From: Bidens hawaiensis
Lineage: Eukaryota > Streptophyta > Magnoliopsida > Asterales > Asteraceae
Direction of reading: 5' to 3'
DNA: 64,000 nucleotides
NCBI GenBank assembly: GCA_021521415.1
Contig: JAIQDT010005465.1
Coordinates: forward strand, 1 to 64,000
Of this stretch, positions 27,562 to 59,953 are shown piece after piece. The notes under the pieces are model-generated. The model had not been told where the DNA came from, ran no database searches, and saw only the letters and a program-made list of their open reading frames with translations. A program made the translations under genes and the position numbers. The first letter of the stretch is position 1; each line of letters begins with the position of its first letter.

Positions 27562-27712
27562 TATTAGACAGTTTAGATACATACATATTAGTATAACAAA
27601 AGGGCTTGTGTGTAATTATGTTTATTACTTATATCCTTTGTAATCTACTTATATCCTTTGTAATCTGATGCTACGTAATACAATATACAATACATCTTTA
27701 CCAAGATTAACT
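27562..27712 (+). repeat. 5' LTR of the 27.6-kb copia element
   Basis: Begins TATTAGACAG and ends AGATTAACT, immediately before the primer site, so the termini are not the usual TG...CA. It contains a 20-bp duplication (ACTTATATCCTTTGTAATCT) absent from the other LTR. Confidence 0.85.
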
Positions 27713-30700
27713 TGGTATCAGAGCCTTGCTCTGCAACCCTAAAATAGCCACCACCATCCCCCTCCTCTCCTCTTTTTCGATCAACTGATCTCCAGCAAAT
27801 ACAAATCAATGGCGTTGCTTCCCTCCTTCACTACAGCCGAAAAGACCAATCACAACTCTCACAAATTCGGTTTCACCGTCTCTTCCACTAACTATGGTGA
27901 CTGGAAAACAATGATTCAACCTTTTCTTGTAACCAATAAACTTTTTGGTTATGTAGATGGAACTATCCCGTGTCCAGATTCCACCATTACAACTCCTTCT
28001 GCCAGCAAAGAAATCCCTCCCACAACCCAACCGAACCCTAATTATGAAACGTGGGTCTCCAATGATGCCCATGTACGTATGTTGCTTCTTTCAACAATTT
28101 CTGAAGGTGTGTTTCAACATGTTCAGGGCACCACTTCTCGCGAATTATGGCAGGCTTTGGAGCGTGCTTTTGCTCCCAACACATCCTCTCGAGAGTACAC
28201 GCTAAAACAACAACTTCTCAGAATCCAGATGACAGATGATGAAACTGTTACAGCATATCTCACAAGAGCACAAGGGTATGCTGATGCCTTGGCAAACATC
28301 GGAGAACCGGTAAAAGAAAAGGATCTAGTTATGCATGTATTGACTGGCCTTCGTAATGAGTACAATACCTTGAAGTTCACTATATTAGGACGTCAATTTC
28401 CTACGACCTTTTCTGAATTAAATGGTCTTATCTCAGATCATGATTATATGGTTAAGAAACCTGATCCGGTTTCTCCTCAGGTTTTCACGGCTACCACCAC
28501 TAAACCGTCCCCACCTACGGCCACCTCTTCCATACCTAATGACACTGTTGTTGCTCTTCAACAGCTTATGTCTCAACTAGGTCTCCCACAGACGCCATCT
28601 TCACAACCGCAGGCCATGTATGCTTCCCGTGGTCGCGGTTATTCAAATAGAGGTCGTGGGGGACGTGGCAACTCTCGCTATTACAACAACAATGGTGGTA
28701 ATCGGGGTCAATTTAATTGGTCAACTAATCAAAACCTGGTTCATGGTACTTGTAACAGGTGTGGAATTGGACATATACCATCTCTTTGCCCCAATCGTGA
28801 TCCGAATACATTGAGGTCACCGCAACCAACTGCCAACTATGCTGATTTCCGCTCACAAGCATCAACTGCATGGCTCCCCGACACTGGCTCCAACAGTCAT
28901 GTTGCATCAGACCTTCACATCCTTGATAATTTTACACCCTATTACGGTGAGGATTCTCTTCATGTTGGCAACGGTGAGGGTTTACCTATATTACACATTG
29001 GTTCAACCAAAATTCATTCCACCACAAAAACTTTTTCCATATCTGACATACTTCATGTACCACAAATTAAAAGAAACCTTCTTTCTTTTCAAAAGTTTTG
29101 TCTTGATAATGACGTTTTCTTTGAATTTCACTCAACTTTTTTTGCTGTGAAGGACAAGTTTACACGCAATACCCTCCTCACGGGTCCAAATGACTTGGGC
29201 ATCCACATCCAGATCTTTTTGAAGTCTATGATTTTAAATTTCTCACTTCCTGTCAGTAATAAAAGTTTGAGTTTCTCTTGTACTTCTTGTCACATGGGGA
29301 AATACTCAAAACTTCATTTGCTATCATCAACTTTTCAGAGTAATAATGTTTTGGATTTGATTTTTTGTGATGTTTGGGGGCCTGCACCTGTTAAATCATC
29401 AAATGGTGATAGTTATTTTTTTACTCTGTGTTGATCATTTCACTCGCTACATGTGGTTCTATCCGTTAAAACATAAATCTGATGTTTGCACGATTTTCAA
29501 ACAATTTCATGCTATGGTTGAACGACAATTTAACACAAAATTAAAATCTATTCAAACAGATTGGGGTGGTGAATTTCGACCCCTTTCTCCCTACTTTTCA
29601 TCACTTGGTATAATACATCGCTTATCTTGTCCTCACACAAGTGAACAAAATGGTTTTGTTGAGCGACGTCACAGACATGTTGTTGAAACCGGGCTTACTC
29701 TTCTCGCTCAGTCGGGTGTCCCTCAACGTTTTTGGCACTTTGCTTTCGACACCGCCGTGTATCTCATAAATCGCATGCCCTCTCGTGTTGCTTCCCAAAT
29801 CTCTTCGTTTGAACACATTTTCAAACGAGCACCTGACCTTTCCTTTTTACGTGTGTTTGGATGCCAATGCTATCCTCACTTACGTCCTTACAATAAACAC
29901 AAAATGGATTTTCGTTCTACACCGTGTGTCTTTCTAGGTTATAGTTCTTCTCACCATGGTTACCATTGTCTAGATTCCCACACACATCGCCTCTATATTG
30001 CACGACATGTCCGTTTCAATGAACATCTTTTTCCATTCTCTCAACCACCACCTATCACAACTCCTTCCCCACAACCTGATCCTTATGTATCCTCATTTCC
30101 CATACCTCAAAAATTTCCCAATTCTTCTAACTCATCTACCACACCAGATCCCATTTCAACCCCTATGGCCTCACCACAAACACCACCTGTCACCACAAAC
30201 ATCCCTGATCCAGCCCCAACACCGACACCACCTGTCATCACAAACATCCCTGATACAGCCCCACCTTCACCTCAAACAACCCACACACCTTCCATTCAAA
30301 CCTATTAGCGACGTCTCAAACAATCCACAACTACACAAACACAGTCTACCCAACCCACTCAACCATCCACCACTGCTCCTCCCAACCGCACCCGTCCTGC
30401 CAACCTTAGACCAAATCCCTTTAAAACTAAACCTTACCAACCATCTGCCTTTATCGCCACCTCTGACCCTACCCAAACTGAACCCACCACCTTCACCGTT
30501 GCACACAAATACCCTCAATGGCGGGATGCCATGGCTGCTGAATACAACGCACTTGTGAAAAATGGTACGTGGACTTTGGTTCCACCAGTTTTGAATGTTA
30601 ATGTAGTTGATTGCAAGTGGGTTTATAAGATCAAACGGGATCAACATGGAGCCATTATAAGGTACAAGGCTCGTCTCGTTGCCAAAGGTTTCAATCAACA

Positions 30701-32053
30701 GGCTGGTATTGACTATCATGAAACCTTCAGTCCAGTTGTCAAGGCAACCACAATTCGCATGGTTCTTTCCTTGGCCGTTACCCGCGGGTGGTCTCTTCGA
30801 CAATTAGATGTTCAAAATGCATTTTTAAATGGTGATTTGCGTGAGACAGTTTATTTAAGACAACCACTCGGATTTATTGATCCTGCCAAGCCAGACCATT
30901 TATGCTTGTTGCACAAATCTCTATATGGTCTAAAACAGGCACCCCGAGCATGGTTCCAACGCTTATCTGGGGCTCTTCAGCATCTTGGCTTTAAAGGGTC
31001 AAATACTGATCCTTCACTTTTTATTTACTCCCAAGCAGGTACTCTTTTATACATGCTCGTGTATGTTGATGATATTATTTTGAGGGGCAACAGTCCGGCT
31101 GCCATTGACAAAGTTGTTCAACATCTTAGTACTACCTTTGCGCTGCAAGATATGGGAAATCTGTCTTATTTCTTGGGGATTGAAGTTACATCCAATGGGC
31201 CTAATTTATTGCTTTCACAAAAAAGTACATCTTGGAGATTTTAAACAAAGCAGGTCTTTCCACATCGAAGCCTGTTTCATTTCCATGCTCCACCTGAGCT
31301 AATCTAGCTCTTGGTGACAATCCCCCCTTTGACAACCTGGTAAAGTATCGTCAGCTTGTCGGAGCTTTGCAATATCTCACCCTGACACGACCGGACATCG
31401 CCTTTGCAGTTAACAAAGTTTGTCAATTTATGCATTCGCCTACACAAAATCATTGGTCAGCTGTTAAACGAATCCTCCGTTATCTTCAGGGAAGTTTAGA
31501 TCATGGTCTTCTTTTTCAGCGATCTTCTGGCTCCACAGTACATGCTTATACTGATGCTCACTATCGACCTCTCACCGCCTACTCAGATGCAGACTTGGCA
31601 GGTTGTCCAGATGATCGTCGATCCACAGGGGGTTTTGCCATATATCTTGGATCTAATCTTGTCTCTTGGTCAGCTCGGAAACAACGTACGGTATCCACGT
31701 CATCAACTGAATCTGAATACAAAGCATTAGCCGATACAGTTGCTGAACTAACTTGGCTTGAAGCGCTTCTCCGTGAACTTGGAGTACCAGTTAAGTCTGC
31801 TCCCGTCTTATGGTGTGATAATCTTGGTGCCACATACTTATCAGCTAATCCAGTCTTTCGCGCTCGCACAAAGCATGTTGAAGTTGATTTTCATTTTGTG
31901 CGAGAAAAGGTTGCTCAAAGAAGACTGTCTGTTCAGTTTATCTCCACACATGACCAGATTGCTGATGTCTTTACCAAGCCACTGCCCTCAGATCGATTCA
32001 TGCTTCTACGGGACAAGCTACAGCTAGTTTCCCGGGCTTAGCTTGAGGGGGAC

Positions 32054-32188
32054 TATTAGACAGTTTAGATACATACATACATATTAGTATAATAGAAGGG
32101 CTTGTGTGTAATTATGTTTGTTACTTATATCCTTTGTAATCTGATGCTACGTAATACAATATACAATACATCTTTACCAAGATTAACT
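32054..32188 (+). repeat. 3' LTR of the 27.6-kb copia element
   Basis: Preceded by the polypurine tract GAGGGGGAC and followed by the target duplication CTATA. 135 bp; has an extra 4-bp ATAC relative to the 5' LTR. Confidence 0.85.
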
Positions 32189-53306: not shown

Positions 53307-53311
53307 GGGTA

Positions 53312-53714
53312 TGTTAGAATAAATATATTTTATATATATTTATATATGGCCCTTATAATTATTTATTTTATTATTGATCATTGATCTAAATAACCTTATG
53401 TTTATAACTGGTAAATCCTTGATGGACGGAATTACCCTTACTAACATTAATAGGGTTTCCCCTTGGGTGTATATATAGAGAGCTTACTAGAGAGGTTAAT
53501 AACGAATGATGAATAATAACACCATAAGATTCATCCCCTACCTCTCTCTCTCAAATCGTGTTCATCAAGAACACCTAATCTCCATCCTAACCATACACCC
53601 TAAAGGGGAACTCGATCAGATTAAGAAGATGTCAATCTCAAACATCACTGGATTATCAGGTATTACATATTTCCTTGTTTCCATTATATCATCGATTATA
53701 GAAACTGATCAACA
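53312..53714 (+). repeat. 5' LTR of the 53.3-kb element
   Basis: TGTTAGAATAAATATATTTT start, CTGATCAACA end; TATATATAGAGAGC near 53471 is a plausible promoter TATA. Two bases separate it from the primer site. Confidence 0.95.
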
Positions 53715-54106
53715 TGTGGTATCAGAGCATGATGTTGATTAATCAGTTTCTTCGATGTCCATAAAAACTGGAATTAAAATAGGAAACGAGTTTTTGATTA
53801 AAACCCTTATGTTTACGGTTTTGATCATCATCATAAAACTGATTGGATCTGATGTTCGTATTACTTCTAACGAATTGTTAGGTCTGATTAAAACCTGTTC
53901 ATTATAAAAACCTGATTATTTTCGAAATCTGTTTTACAAAACTTTCAGATTTCGATTCCAGTATTAAATCTGATAATATAATCGAAAACAGTTTCGTAAA
54001 ATTCTTGAAACTGTTCTTGTTTTTTTTTTTTTTTTTTCGAAGATGTTCTTGAAGAACATCATAATTTTCGAAAACTAACCTTAATTAGGATTAACTTGGG
54101 AAAATG

Positions 54107-54425
54107 AAATCTGTTAAAGAGATAATATTATCTCTAAGTTTAATTTCAAAATCTTTTAAATAAAATAAAAAATATAATTTTGAAATCTTATTAAAATTAG
54201 AGATAATCTAAAACTTTAAAGAAATAATATTATCTCTAAGTTTAATTTCAAAATCTTTAATATAAAATAAAAGATATAATTTTGAAATCTTATTAAAATT
54301 AGAGATAATCTAAAACTTTAAAGAGATAATATTATCTCTAAGTTTAATTTCAAAATCTTTTAAATAAGATAAAAGATATAATTTTGAAATCTTATTAAAT
54401 TTTGAGATAATCTAAAACTTTATAA
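54107..54425 (+). repeat. Three tandem 102-bp repeats with a palindromic core
   Basis: Units start near 54118, 54220 and 54322. Each holds AGAGATAATATTATCTCT (one base changed in unit 2), an 18-bp perfect palindrome, followed by AAGTTTAATTTCAAAATC and AATTTTGAAATCTTATTAAA, which can pair with each other. Confidence 0.9.
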
Positions 54426-54489
54426 CAGAATCTCCCAAATCCCTTAAAATTAGGAAAAGGTTATCAGGTTGATTATTCTTTTCGAATTC

Positions 54490-55050
54490 TGCTAATGTTG
54501 CGAATCAAGGCATCTATTCGCAACAACTGGACTCTAATCGCAACAAATGAAATGTTGCGAAATCGCATGATGTTGCGAGAATTACATATTATCTTGCGAG
54601 TAACATGTTGCGAATGTCCACTAATTATGTTGCGATCAGAACCTAGCATCACAGAATGTTGCGAAGGGACATATGTTGCGAAAAGTCACTAATGTTGCGA
54701 ACCTTAAGATGTTGCGTATTACTTAAGATGTTGCGACGAGCTAATTTTGCAAGATGTTGCGAGTATTACCTATTGATGTTGCGATCAGCCCATAAAATCA
54801 CAGGATGTTGCGAGTACTCTTAATCGCAACAATTATGTTGCGAGTGCTTTAAATCGCAACAATGCTGATTACATCACAACAACTCCATTCGCAACATCTC
54901 TCATAACAACATCATTCGCAACATCTCTTATAAAACATCAATCGCAACATTACTTATGACTGCACTGTTCGCAACATCTAAAATCCCCTAACCAAATTCG
55001 CAACATCACTTCGAAGAAATCGCAACTTTACTTATATCTTACATGTTGCG
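54490..55050. repeat. Dense cluster of TGTTGCGA / TCGCAACA words
   Basis: Fourteen exact TGTTGCGA and nine exact TCGCAACA in about 560 bp, plus near matches. Forward words dominate to about 54850 and reverse words from 54850 to 55020, so the two halves could pair. Spacers between words are unrelated to one another, so this is not a simple tandem repeat. Confidence 0.9.
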
Positions 55051-55089
55051 AAATGATCAGAAACCCTTATATATAACCTAACTGATTAA

Positions 55090-55600
55090 GGGGCCCTGCT
55101 CCGTTAAATTACTTAACTTAAATAACACTTATAGTTCACTTCTGCCCAACGGTGATGTGTAACCTAATATTGTTATTTAAGTCTAATTAAGTATGTCACT
55201 TAAAAGTGTATGTCCTAACGTTATCAGACATTCGCATGACTTTAGTTTTGCTTAACTTAAACAACACTTCATGAGTTCACTTCTGCCCAATGGTGATGTG
55301 GTAGCTTATCAAAGTTGTTTTAGTCTAACTAAGCATAGTCATCTAAAAGATGAGTATCCTAAAATTGCTAGATACTCAAATGACATTAACTTTGCCTTAA
55401 ATACCTTAAATGTCTCAATTCTGCCCAACGGTGATTTGTTACATTTATGTATTGCAAACTTACCTTGTGCATAACAACTTGATTGTTCCAATTCTGCCCA
55501 ACGGTGATTTGTTACAATTATTTTCGCACAAGAATTTTATACTTAAATAATACATTTTCTGCCCAACGGTGATCTATTTTATTTAAGTATAATAAAATTA
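55090..55600 (+). repeat. Array of five hairpins with a conserved 17-nt loop motif
   Basis: TTCTGCCCAACGGTGAT at 55140, 55281 (one base changed), 55419, 55492 and 55557. Each copy sits between pairing arms: 55111-55127 with 55171-55192; 55251-55265 with 55314-55333; 55389-55413 with 55441-55460; 55464-55486 with 55514-55532; 55537-55550 with 55579-55592 (14 bp perfect). Stem sequences differ while pairing is kept. Confidence 0.8.
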
Positions 55601-58239
55601 ATTTTGGTGTTATACTTAAAATTATCACATCTTCATAATGATCCTTACATTAATGATCCTTCATTAATGATCCTAATTTCAGTCTGCCTTATTAGATTAC
55701 CCATAACATAAATCACTCTAAAATTCTTCTATAAAGTTTGAATCTCAAACCTAAATCATCCATTCTTATTACAAAACCTAAGAAGAGTTTTGCTTCTAAA
55801 AGGGTCTTATAAAATTTGCCCTTTTGAGTCTTGATTATCCTTAAAGACTTGAAATTCTTACTGCTCATTCTGATAAAAGTATTACAGAAAAACACTTGAG
55901 CATAATCAGTGGGATAAATAAATATGTCTCTTATGATAATCAAGAACTCCTTACATGATTCCTATCAGGTGAGCAATTACGGATTCTAAAATTCCTAAGA
56001 CTAACGTTTTTTTTTTCTATGGAAATAATAGAATCAAAACAATTCCTAAGATGCATGCAAAACACTCTAATTCTAAATAAAAAGGTTAATTGGCATTTGT
56101 GAATACATCCTAATATTTAATTCCATGACCCATAAACTGAGAGCTTATACATGGAACTTAATGAAGTCTTTTCAGTGTATTACTTTTCCACCAGTACAAT
56201 TAGATGCCTTAAGAATCAACTATAACACTCAGAAGTACTAAAGGAAACTGAGTGTGTTGCTAGCAATATATGTACAGGAAAAGGAATGCCTAAAATTGAA
56301 AATCAAATGTTATTCACCTTACTACCACTAAACCTTAAAAGAGGATAGTTCTAAAGACTTGAAACAAAATACAAGTACTGCTTCCAGCTCTAAGTTCTCA
56401 AAGGGAAAGTCTCACTGCAAAATCATGCCATTAGACTAGGCACGAGCAAAGAGACTATCCATACCTCAAGGGAACAGTTGGCTAAGAAAGGTAGTTACCA
56501 ATTAATGATATTTAACTCCACTAATATTAATATCCCTATTAACACATGTTAGTTGAGTTTAGTTTTATACGTTTCCTTATCAGAAATCGATAATAATTAA
56601 GATGAGAGTCAGTGACTCATTTAGTGTTAAGGTTGTAAGAACCATAAAAGCTGTTTTGTATTAAGCTTTATGATACCTTAAACATTCTAGAGTTTACTCA
56701 GAATTTAGTATCAATACTAAAGCTACATTTTGACAGTTATAAGGTTTTAAATGACCAAAACAAAGTCACTACTAACTAAAACTATCATATTATCGGTCGT
56801 TATTATCTGAATAGAAACCTTATAAGATAAAACTAAGCGATGCTACAAATTTCACAACCTTTTGTTATCATAGAAATGAGAATTTAACAAAAGATAAATG
56901 AGACTTACGTACTTCATCCATTAAGACCAAAATTTTCATGAGAAATCATGACTCGGTTGACAAAGGATGAATCGCCATTAAATCTCATTCTTAGTGATTT
57001 GAAAGCATGTGTTAAATGCCCTAAATATAAACTGGATAAAGGGAGTAAGTGAGGTCCACCATAAGTTATAATTCACTGCTATTAGTGGAGCTTAGAAGAA
57101 TATCAACTTGTATCTAATCTGTTTCCTACTGGACAAGTTCTTTAAAGAAATCAATTCATATATACTTATCAGTATTCCTTCTAAATATGTCCTTAAAATT
57201 TCTTATGAAATATGGACAATAAGGAAATCAAGTCTAAAATGTATGAAAGTTTCCTATGACATGAATCGCCAAAACTTGTATGGACTTTTAGAGGCCTAAA
57301 AGATCAGTGGGAGCACTGAGTGTCCTTATATGCAAGAGATGGGGGAGAAACAACTTAATCTACCTCATAAAACATCCCTTGTATAAGACACTGCTCCATT
57401 ATATCTTGTCTCCTTAACATTTAATGCTACTCCTAACAAATTTTGTTGGATACCTAAATATGGGAAAACTTAGATTTCTTACCAAGACTAATTAATATAA
57501 TCCTCAATTAGAATTTATTGGTCTTCTGATGTTGACCCTAAGCATGCTGAATTCTTACATATTTCTAAGGTCAGTAGGAGCAGTAAAAGTCCTTATCATA
57601 ACTTGGCTAAGTACAAGACGCGGGGGGAGAGATTGTCGCTTACTTTAACTCCGATTACACCTCTTGTACACCATACTGCACCAACTCTTACATACTTAGA
57701 AACTAATATTGCTCCTAATATACCTGAAAATATGAAACTCCTTATAAACCCAATAATCAACTCAGGAGGTCATCTAGGTCTCAAAGGCCTACTAACTTTG
57801 ATGATTATGTACCCTACCTGACTAAAGATTAAATGGATTTTGGAAGGTTTAATGATCCTACCTCTTCTAATTAAACCATTAGTATCAATCAATCTTCTAA
57901 AATAGTATAACGTTTGGGATTTGGTTGAATTACCTAAAAGGTAGTCATTACTAAACTAAATCTGAATGAATAACGTTAATACACTAAAGGTATGATTGAT
58001 TGATAAAGGTATACTCAAGAGGGAATAAATTATCAAAGAACCTAGTTCCTTGTCTTACAAAAGGTTACTTTGAGGATCATCACTGTTCTAGTAGCTTATA
58101 ATAATTTAGAGCTACATTACATGAACATTAAAACAACTTTCCCTAACACTGGCCTACATGTTCGTAAAATAACCTGTAAGTTCTAAACTGAAGGTTAAGA
58201 ACACTTAGTTTGTAAGTCAATAAAATCCATGTATGGGTT

Positions 58240-58700
58240 GATGCAAGAATCAATAATGAAATCATAATGCAACTCTCTTCATCAAGAACTAAGTGGATTG
58301 ATTTACCTACCTCAAGATGAGTGGGAGCAACTAATGTAAACTTGTCCTTATATAGATGACATTCTTTTGACAAGTATATGTTACATGAGTCAAAGTATTG
58401 TTAACGCATATCTTGACCTAATCAATCTCGGAGATACCTCTTATTTAATAGTTATCAAAATACACCGAGATAGACTCATTAGTTTTATATGTTTTACATG
58501 AAACGGGTCCTTACACTTGTAACATACAATATTGCTCTCCTTTAGAGGCTAATAGGATAAATGAGATTATTTCCTTATGCATCATTAATTAGATGCCTTA
58601 AGAAGGTTCAAATCTATACTCGTTTAGATATTGGTCACATTGCTAAACACTAGACTAATTATTTCTATTGTGAAGCATCTGATAAAATATCACAATATCT
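58240..58700 (+). pseudogene. Degenerate copia reverse transcriptase/RNase H fragment
   Basis: The catalytic stretch YIDDILLTS (58349) and, about 225 bp on, PYASLIRCLKK and TRLDIGHIAKH correspond to the YVDD box and the TRPDIAFAV region of copia pol. Several stops and frame changes lie between them. Confidence 0.75.
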
Positions 58701-59545
58701 CTAAGAAACGAGACACAATAATTTAAAGAAGAAGAAGTGAGAACTAAAAAAACGGTTGACTACTAATATTCTAACTTTGTCAACTTCTGGGTATATCCTT
58801 ATGTCAGCAGACATTACTATCTCATGAAGGAGTCCTAACTAACTGATAACAACGACCTAAGTTATAATGACATAATATGTTGCTGATCATAACGCAACGT
58901 GTCACTAAATGTTGTTGGAAAACTTTATCAGTTGACTCATAATTTATTAACTTCATATAAATCCAATATTGAAGACTTATTGTGATAAAGTCAGCTACCC
59001 TTATTTCTTGAACAGTAACAGTTCAAGCGGGGCTGCATTAGAATTCGATACAAGTCTAAATTATTGTTCGCTTATGACTTAAGAACAAATAGAGGAAACT
59101 AAACTTTTGTATCGAATGCATTCATGATATGCTTATGGATCCACTAATTAAAGGTCTGTCACCCATAAGTCTCCTAAATGGCCAATAATAGAGACGGGTT
59201 TTACCAATGACCAAGCGCAACTGCGTATCGTACTATGAATGATTAATTATTAATTTTTCCTCATACGTTGAAAATTTGTTTTGTCTCTAAATACGTTCAT
59301 GCATGCCTAAAGACGTATAGACACTAATTATACAAATCAACGGTAAGGGCTTATTTGTCAATTTGATCCTAAAGTTAGGTTTTAAATTTGAGTTGTAGTA
59401 TGATTAATGGGGGTCCTGAGTCGAATATTGATTCAACGACTGTATTTCTCTGCTGCAATTTAGGTTTAGAACTAAAATGAGTATTAACCTCTGATCAGAC
59501 TAATCTAATGCTCATAATAAATAATTACTAGGCCAAGTGGGAGAA

Positions 59546-59948
59546 TGTTAGAATAAATATATTTTATATATATTTATATATGGCCCTTATAATTATTTAT
59601 CTTATTATTGATCATTGACCTAAATAACCTTATGTTTATAACTGGTAAATCCTTGATGGACGGAATTACCCTTACTAACATTAATAGGGTTTCCCCTTGG
59701 GTGTATATATAGAGAGCTTACTAGGGAGGTTAATAACGAATGATGAATAATAACACCATAAGAATCATCCCCTACCTCTCTCTCTCAAATCGTGTTCATC
59801 AAGAACACCTAATCTCCATCCTAACCATACACCCTAAAGGGGAACTCGATCAGATTAAGAAGATGTCAATCTCAAACATCACTGGATTATCAGGTATTAC
59901 ATATTTCCTTGTTTCCATTATATCATCGATTATAGAAACTGATCAACA
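59546..59948 (+). repeat. 3' LTR of the 53.3-kb element
   Basis: Same length as the 5' LTR; differences seen at four positions (for example TTATCTTATT for TTATTTTATT and ACTAGGGAGG for ACTAGAGAGG). Confidence 0.95.
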
Positions 59949-59953
59949 GGGTA

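Follow-up and report, generated by a model that had tools for sequence, protein, structure and literature searches.

Anatomy of the element and its hairpin array

The window (the whole stretch of 64,000 nucleotides of Bidens hawaiensis DNA that was analysed) contains an LTR retrotransposon with an LTR pair, a target-site duplication, a primer binding site (PBS) and a polypurine tract (PPT) (Table 1). Its Copia-type coding domains are recognisable from an RT remnant in the window element and from the gag, GAG-pre-integrase and RVT_2 domains of a related family, T2. The RT remnant is the one clear similarity in the coding part (E 0.002 vs. 0.18 for the best reversed control); a Pfam search of 20 short dead pieces returned no Copia domain and one weak, unrelated match below the cut-off. 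The region 55600-59400 contains 97-112 stops per frame over approx. 1266 codons, and the U5 exon of the window element has no working gag to join. Near-identical LTRs and a target-site duplication around a stop-ridden coding part indicate that the element moved recently, though its genes have long been dead.

The PBS, which we take to be of the initiator tRNA-Met type, lies between inverted-repeat arms (53700-53750) that are kept in the window, in two T2 copies and in the older relative L046, and the primer site may be presented in a loop. The stretch 53727-55100 holds 15 TTGCGA and 10 TCGCAA motifs, compared with 8 and 7, respectively, in one T2 leader, and the spacers differ; these repeats may form another structure built on a repeated motif. 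Elsewhere in the window (27562-32188), a further Copia element has gag and RT domains, short terminal matches and, below the cut-off, an integrase core; it lacks the 17-mer described below.

Table 1. Features of the window element, with positions counted in the window; z-scores compare folding energy with that of dinucleotide shuffles on the plus strand.
Feature	Position	Strand	Remarks
Target-site duplication GGGTA, left copy	53307-53311	.	right copy 59949-59953; read directly
5' LTR (TG...CA)	53312-53714	+	block against 3' LTR 400/404 identical, one chance flanking base included
U5 segment ATG...CAG	53629-53659	+	predicted first coding exon in T2 relatives; donor GT at 53660; by comparison with T2
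PBS TGGTATCAGAGC	53717-53728	+	flanked by inverted repeat AACTGATCAACAT / ATGTTGATTAATCAGTT
102-bp tandem repeats	54093-54422	+	three copies, partly palindromic
TGTTGCGA / TCGCAACA array	54540-55060	+	both orientations
Two diverged tandem units	55102-55393	+	approx. 141 bp apart, shared structure; 38 consensus pairs, 0 broken
Hairpin 1	55116-55182	+	core 55140-55156; z -4.95
Hairpin 2	55255-55324	+	core 55281-55297, CAAT loop; z -2.10
Hairpin 3	55387-55462	+	core 55419-55435; z -4.31
Hairpin 4	55464-55532	+	core 55492-55508; z -3.88
Hairpin 5	55537-55592	+	core 55557-55573; z -3.99
Dead gag-pol region	55641-59300	+	RT remnant 58016-58246; YIDD motif at approx. 58349
PPT AAGTGGGAGAA	59535-59545	+	same run in a T2 copy
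3' LTR	59546-59948	+

Between the PBS and the dead gag-pol region, a 17-nt core occurs five times, always on the plus strand (434 bp from the first core to the end of the last); the second copy differs by one change, C to T. Five copies at up to three mismatches were reached by 0/100 shuffles of the window. All copies share the apical fold.((.(((....)))))., while their stem sequences differ. The hairpin unit UUCUGCCCAANGGUGAU consists of UC/GA, a bulged U and GCC/GGU round a CAAN loop. In most of the hairpins tabled, a CAC/GUG clamp flanks the core, and the stem sequence is otherwise free if paired; the clamp itself shows a paired change, i.e., it is CAA/TTG in hairpins 3 and 4 of the window-type family (T1) and CAC/GTG in most others.

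When every left arm of the window hairpins is combined with every right arm (a 5 x 5 matrix), the true partner is the best one in every row and column, and only 1 of 120 arm permutations, the true one, attains the observed pairing sum. With shuffled arms, between 0 and 5 of 1000 trials equal the stem energy actually found. The stem of hairpin 5 is a perfect 14-bp helix (55537-55550/55579-55592). Outside the array, 3.5-8.6% of element positions have arms at least as strong; equally strong stems are thus common in this AT-rich element, and the case is carried by the conserved core together with the matching arms rather than by stem strength alone.

Folded whole, the array region 55080-55640 gives z -6.96, a value reached by 0/100 shuffles. 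On a 150-nt sliding scale, the mean z is -2.16 for the leader, compared with -0.63 and -0.96 for the upstream and downstream genomic flanks and -0.99 for the dead coding part; five such 150-nt segments inside the array average only -1.67, and the antisense strand of the leader folds almost as well as the sense strand (-2.03 vs. -2.16). Further small stems lie between hairpins 1 and 2 (55183-55250) and between hairpins 2 and 3 (55324-55390); their sequences differ and they pair in both units, although folded alone they are weak (z 0.09 and -1.82, respectively). At the gathering score, Rfam returned no match; eight weak, chance-level matches below it (E up to 5) fell in the leader, none of them on the array.

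The first-pass annotation had described five copies of the core with a single change in one of them, arms that differ from copy to copy yet still pair, the 14-bp stem, and a location between the primer site and the dead pol of a recently mobile element, and in all these respects it proved accurate; its expectation that the region would fold is also borne out, both hairpin by hairpin and as a whole. Its mention of a dimerisation signal was not supported as regards the loop. The core lacks self-complementarity, and the element contains none of the 7-mers of the core's reverse complement, so neither dimerisation via the loop nor kissing with another part of the element was retained. Plant initiator tRNA-Met was likewise rejected as a pairing partner of the core (the score was reached by 223 of 300 shuffled cores). 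A search of viral contigs with the 17-mer (Y at the loop base) gave ten single matches in unrelated contexts.

Origin of the array and constraint on its pairing

The segment 55109-55303 aligns with 55248-55441 at 74% identity. As judged from this alignment, the array arose by old tandem duplication, and the unusual part is the constraint that acted afterwards. Across the pairs of units 1 and 2, four are altered on both sides and two on one side. The alignment energy of the two units is -21.9, compared with -7.5 +/- 2.6 when the substitutions are redistributed, and the observed value was reached in 0/1000 redistributions; for hairpins 3 and 4, redistributed substitutions likewise reached the alignment energy in 0/1000. 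The bare count of two-sided changes is not significant in either comparison (103/1000 for units 1 and 2 and 180/1000 for hairpins 3 and 4).

The comparison between families was based on 17 hairpins from five families (T1, five; T2, four; T3, four; L046, three; T4, one), with T3 represented by the copy L047 in the arm-swap test and by L117 in the tests of identity and strand. Mean pairwise identity is 0.952 in the core, compared with 0.446 and 0.508 in the 16 nt on either side. With their own arms, the hairpins average -11.58 kcal/mol, compared with -4.75 kcal/mol for swapped arms, and 0/200,000 permutations reach the true sum. Only 10 rows and 7 columns of this 17 x 17 matrix are won by the own arms, partly because homologous hairpins from different families fit one another. 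Five hairpins are weak, i.e., shuffled arms reach their energy in 10 (T2, hairpin 1), 19 (T2, hairpin 2), 37 (T3, hairpin 2), 12 (T3, hairpin 4) and 39 (L046, hairpin 3) of 500 trials. The core adopts the same fold in 15 of the 17, and the sense strand of the hairpins folds better than the antisense strand (mean z -3.28 vs. -1.96; stronger in 13 of 17).

When right arms are dealt out anew among T4 copies, pairing is nearly preserved (243/2000 reach it), and thus this family gives no significant covariation signal of its own. Covariation, which the first-pass annotation had taken as the mark of its reading, therefore appears between hairpins and between families and is missing within this one family. 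The same annotation had argued for selected RNA structure as opposed to simple duplication; the first part is upheld, whereas the duplication that it dismissed is visible in the alignment. Overall, the comparisons support the view that the array is an RNA structure under selection, the pairing of which has been kept between hairpins and families.

Families carrying the array and a predicted leader intron

The genome-wide search for the 17-mer that the first-pass annotation had proposed returned 525 exact copies in the 3.47-Gb host assembly and none for the reversed control. The matches listed (about the first hundred places) are spread over 30 loci; all 30 were fetched, and 30/30 belong to this lineage. 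Twenty are of T1, and each of these has five cores at nearly the same spacing with up to two mismatches per core. Seven belong to T2, and 7/7 have four cores spaced 135, 74 and 75, each with up to one mismatch. The remaining three are older relatives with three (L046), four (L047) and one (L048) cores at up to three mismatches. A search with L047 led to T3: among the 40 loci scored, 16 of the 39 others were fetched, and 16/16 have three or four cores. The search with L048 led to T4: again among the 40 loci scored, 38 of the 39 others were fetched, and 35/38 have one core at up to four mismatches. Hairpin number thus varies between families (5, 4, 4, 3 and 1), and not all relatives therefore require multivalence. 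T3 (L117-L132) had 1822 first-look candidates, of which 40 were scored, and looks like a large older family. LTR pairs were not found for the T4 copy at C114 and the T3 copy at C85, and no PBS was seen in a second T4 upstream stretch (L138).

T1 has multiplied recently as a protein-dead family. The RT piece of the window element was found in eight of ten T1 copies at 98.0-99.8% identity, with no match in the other two. In the ten aligned stretches, which include these two, 97 of the 98 window stops in this piece (three frames) recur in seven to ten stretches and one in four. LTR pairs were found in six of the ten copies (97.8-100% identical), four of which have readable 5-bp duplications of their own; dead genes have therefore been inherited by several independent recent insertions. 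Sampling independent of the array gave the same picture. A search with the PBS head listed 40 perfect matches including the window, 20 of the 39 others were sampled, and within the 241 bases read all 20 have at least one array core and 18 have two; the sampled heads are identical to T1, so this test covers T1 and not other families. The tract from PBS head to array is approx. 100 bp shorter in four of the 20, which suggests that the number of 102-bp repeats varies between insertions while the hairpin array stays. On host-assembly contig C8666 (58365-70959), three PBS heads lie on one strand, 6231 and 6233 bp apart, and the LTR-to-LTR period of the window element is 6234 bp; these heads probably mark elements joined in tandem, with LTRs in common.

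T2 combines the array with open genes. A stop-free gag-pol frame of 1379 codons is present in three of the seven copies, and the other four have breaks. One copy, searched as pieces, gave Pfam matches above the cut-off to Copia gag, GAG-pre-integrase, Pol_BBD, SH3-like and RVT_2, with the integrase core just below it, and another copy has one CCHC knuckle. LTR pairs, detectable in six of seven, are 93.2-99.8% identical. Compared with one T2 copy in alignments with many gaps, the window element is 91.8% identical over 1712 aligned positions of 5' LTR and leader and 75.1% identical over 3390 aligned positions of the coding part. Position-matched cores (window 1, 3, 4 and 5 vs. T2 copy 1-4) show 0/68 differences, the chance of which is 3e-9 at 25% divergence and 3e-3 at 8%. 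Such identity could reflect either selection on cis signals or repeated recombination, and the T1 and T2 leaders as a whole may be alike through recombination rather than selection. T2 is thus a relative that has open genes together with a matching LTR, PBS and leader, and it is likely, as far as sequence can tell, the helper that moves T1.

The T2 array appears to sit in a leader intron, with an exon containing the ATG and the donor in the LTR and an acceptor just before gag. Homology to gag begins well upstream of the first in-frame ATG of T2, where the stretch beginning PNCGIETLTGANFTAWKDSL matches T4. Upstream of this ATG, T2-T4 differences summed over ten related T4 copies number 66, 51 and 150 at the first, second and third codon positions, respectively, which is the mark of coding sequence. 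Just 5' of the gag homology, a pyrimidine-rich run ending in AG is present in 7/7 copies (22-23 pyrimidines of 30, vs. a leader mean of 16.3 of 30, with at least 21 in 3.6% of leader segments). The T2 LTR has an ATG, 28 further nt and the donor motif GTATTAC in six of seven stretches (in L043, in the downstream LTR only). The phase also fits, as the 31-nt U5 exon comprises ten codons and one base and the acceptor exon supplies two bases before PNC; donor, acceptor and matching phase are thus all found in T2. Between the main T1 and T2 versions of the U5 exon there are two differences, each at a third codon position and each exchanging one serine codon for another.

Other relatives show parts of the same arrangement. 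In T4, 16 of 18 copies scored have a gag frame without an ATG, and the one U5 seen (L137) has a GTAAGT donor in fitting phase after ASSSSKITIPT, with no ATG there. A database protein of dodder, marked partial, begins MASSSSKVS and continues into the same gag; this start fits the U5 exon, although it is serine-rich and itself a prediction. Relatives of this Gag occur in sunflower and carrot as well as in dodder. The acceptor stretch has diverged in the window family, where no acceptor could be placed; nor was a clean U5 donor seen in L046. Provided that the intron exists, the PBS, the TGTTGCGA array and the hairpins are all intronic, i.e., the message would lose them and the genomic RNA would keep them.

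Possible functions and relation to known systems

It is reasonable to regard the array as an RNA element that is multivalent, acts in cis and belongs to a single Copia lineage. Structured RNA lies between the PBS and gag in both the candidate helper and the passenger, as would be expected of a packaging signal. An element that acts at the RNA level, is repeated, is kept by helper and passenger, is absent from the spliced message and lies downstream of the PBS has the profile expected of a signal for recognition of genomic RNA. The array might be a mark borne by genomic RNA, with packaging by trans-supplied Gag as its likeliest purpose, a reading that we consider about evenly balanced between right and wrong. 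The predicted leader intron would hold the PBS and the array, so that the spliced, translatable mRNA would lose the array while the genomic RNA would keep it. The zinc-knuckle part of Gag would then recognise unspliced genomic RNA via the array, packaging being the most likely step, and protein-dead T1 would keep the array because it is needed for packaging by Gag from the partner family. Splicing, Gag binding and packaging are all steps that we infer.

Packaging by Gag is ranked first, and export or intron retention second. In the latter case, the hairpins would serve nuclear export, nuclear retention or splicing control by recruiting a host or element protein, so that the intron-bearing genomic RNA leaves the nucleus unspliced, as with the transport elements of mouse IAP and MusD. 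The position of the array inside the predicted intron suits this, since the signal would act on unspliced RNA only, and the RTE and MTE elements are described in a 2025 review, as far as its available text goes (PMC12786077). However, no known export motif was recognised in the array, Rfam gave no match to it, and splicing itself is a prediction; this role is possible but rather unlikely.

Alternatively, the pairing could be a mutational by-product, in which tandem duplication combined with template switching during reverse transcription repairs imperfect palindromes and produces compensatory changes without selection. The array did arise by tandem duplication, and palindromes are abundant elsewhere in the element, but such a process leaves unexplained why a 17-nt core is 95% identical over five families when the arms are at 45-51%; we consider it improbable. 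Somewhat less probable still is an enhancer array acting at the DNA level downstream of the promoter. The best candidate of this kind is the MSA site, a mitosis-specific site bound by MYB3R factors, as CCCAACGGTGA agrees with the consensus at 10 of 11 positions and clustered copies are typical of enhancers. Nonetheless, T3 lacks the AACGG heart of the site (all 63 cores fetched have A at the fourth loop position), as does hairpin 2 of the window family, and a DNA site needs neither matching arms nor a folding preference for one strand.

A translation element, i.e., ribosome shunting or internal entry across the long leader, would account for a structured leader with 32 AUGs between the PBS and the first in-frame gag AUG (counted in one T2 copy), but it would be superfluous if the leader is spliced out and gag starts in the U5 exon, and dead T1, which is unable to translate gag-pol, still keeps the array; this role is very improbable. 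That the repeats are a coding remnant of gag, an objection raised in the first-pass annotation itself, has a negligible chance: every one of the five copies can be read as the peptide LPNGD (one of them in a different frame from the other four), yet in 7/7 T2 copies both the gag acceptor and the gag frame lie downstream of the array, with stops before the gag frame in the three open ones, similarity is confined to the core, the T3 loop base would alter the peptide, and no relative was seen with the array inside an open gag frame.

For packaging, retroviral leaders may be regarded as the closest working analogue and BARE1/BARE2 as the closest plant pair, with membership claimed in neither. Large retrotransposon derivatives (LARDs) are non-autonomous elements with a conserved non-coding interior that is said to be structured. 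They share non-autonomy with the window element, which differs in keeping a recognisable dead pol and in having an identified partner with open frames. Sireviruses are characterised by a large gag, palindromic repeated motifs and, in some of their members, an env-like gene.

Retroviral packaging signals (psi), such as RSV M-psi and its 82-nt micro-psi or the HIV-1 leader, lie in 5' leaders as structured stem-loops between the PBS and gag and are read by a zinc-finger Gag, according to the portions of the source consulted (PMC5035971). The array differs in that a single near-identical core is repeated and in that it belongs to a plant Copia lineage; the likeness is drawn without a claim of homology. 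Furthermore, the RSV signal is upstream of its splice donor in that account, whereas the array is downstream of the predicted donor (PMC5035971).

In the barley Copia pair, BARE2 cannot make Gag and is packaged into BARE1 particles, and packaging and dimerisation signals are said to be conserved in BARE2; a Gag-less member thus stands beside a partner, as here, and BARE likewise has separate RNA pools for translation and replication (PMC3735527, in the passages seen). BARE divides these pools by two transcription starts, capping and a Gag-favouring splice, whereas here a predicted leader intron holds the PBS and the array; in the parts of its description that were available, no repeated hairpin array was found (PMC3735527).

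The mouse IAP RTE and MusD MTE are also cis-acting structured RNAs on full-length LTR-retrotransposon transcripts, but they use the NXF1 pathway (PMC12786077, excerpts). Sireviruses, which are plant Copia elements, similarly carry repeated motifs that are conserved in their non-coding parts; in contrast to the core, these are palindromic, mostly with a CGG-CCG signature, placed either 5' of the LTR's TATA box or close to env, and likened to transcriptional activators (PMC2829016, as excerpted). A stem loop near the PPT is described there, and the words 'packaging' and 'hairpin' do not occur in the main text as accessed (PMC2829016).

According to the accessible sections of a 2025 review, the export of LTR-retrotransposon RNA in plants has yet to be studied directly, and plant elements are generally without introns, with Ogre and EVADE as exceptions (PMC12786077). 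No description of the 17-mer motif or of a leader-intron hairpin array was found in the literature searched (titles, abstract starts and passages, with most subscription journals outside this scope). Cis-acting leader RNA of an LTR element is therefore known as such; the novelty lies in the repetition of one near-identical core, in the predicted intron and in the pair of dead and open families. How plant LTR retrotransposons select RNA for packaging is poorly known, and the array makes this step testable. One genome offers a defined 17-nt core, natural variants of stem, loop and copy number, a dead passenger and an open-frame partner, and packaging, export and splicing can be separated with short RNAs and one protein domain. 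Such a signal would also help to explain the continued multiplication of a family without a protein of its own.

A wider picture can be offered only tentatively, as doubtful but possible: in this plant Copia lineage, the packaging code might be a repeated hairpin 'barcode' in the leader intron, splicing might sort message from genome, protein-dead members might parasitise intact ones by keeping the barcode, and the loop-base change of T3, which affects almost all of its hairpins together, could trace a matching change in its Gag. On the last point, L047 itself has C at the loop base in one core and L046 mixes C, A and T, so this base may simply be free.
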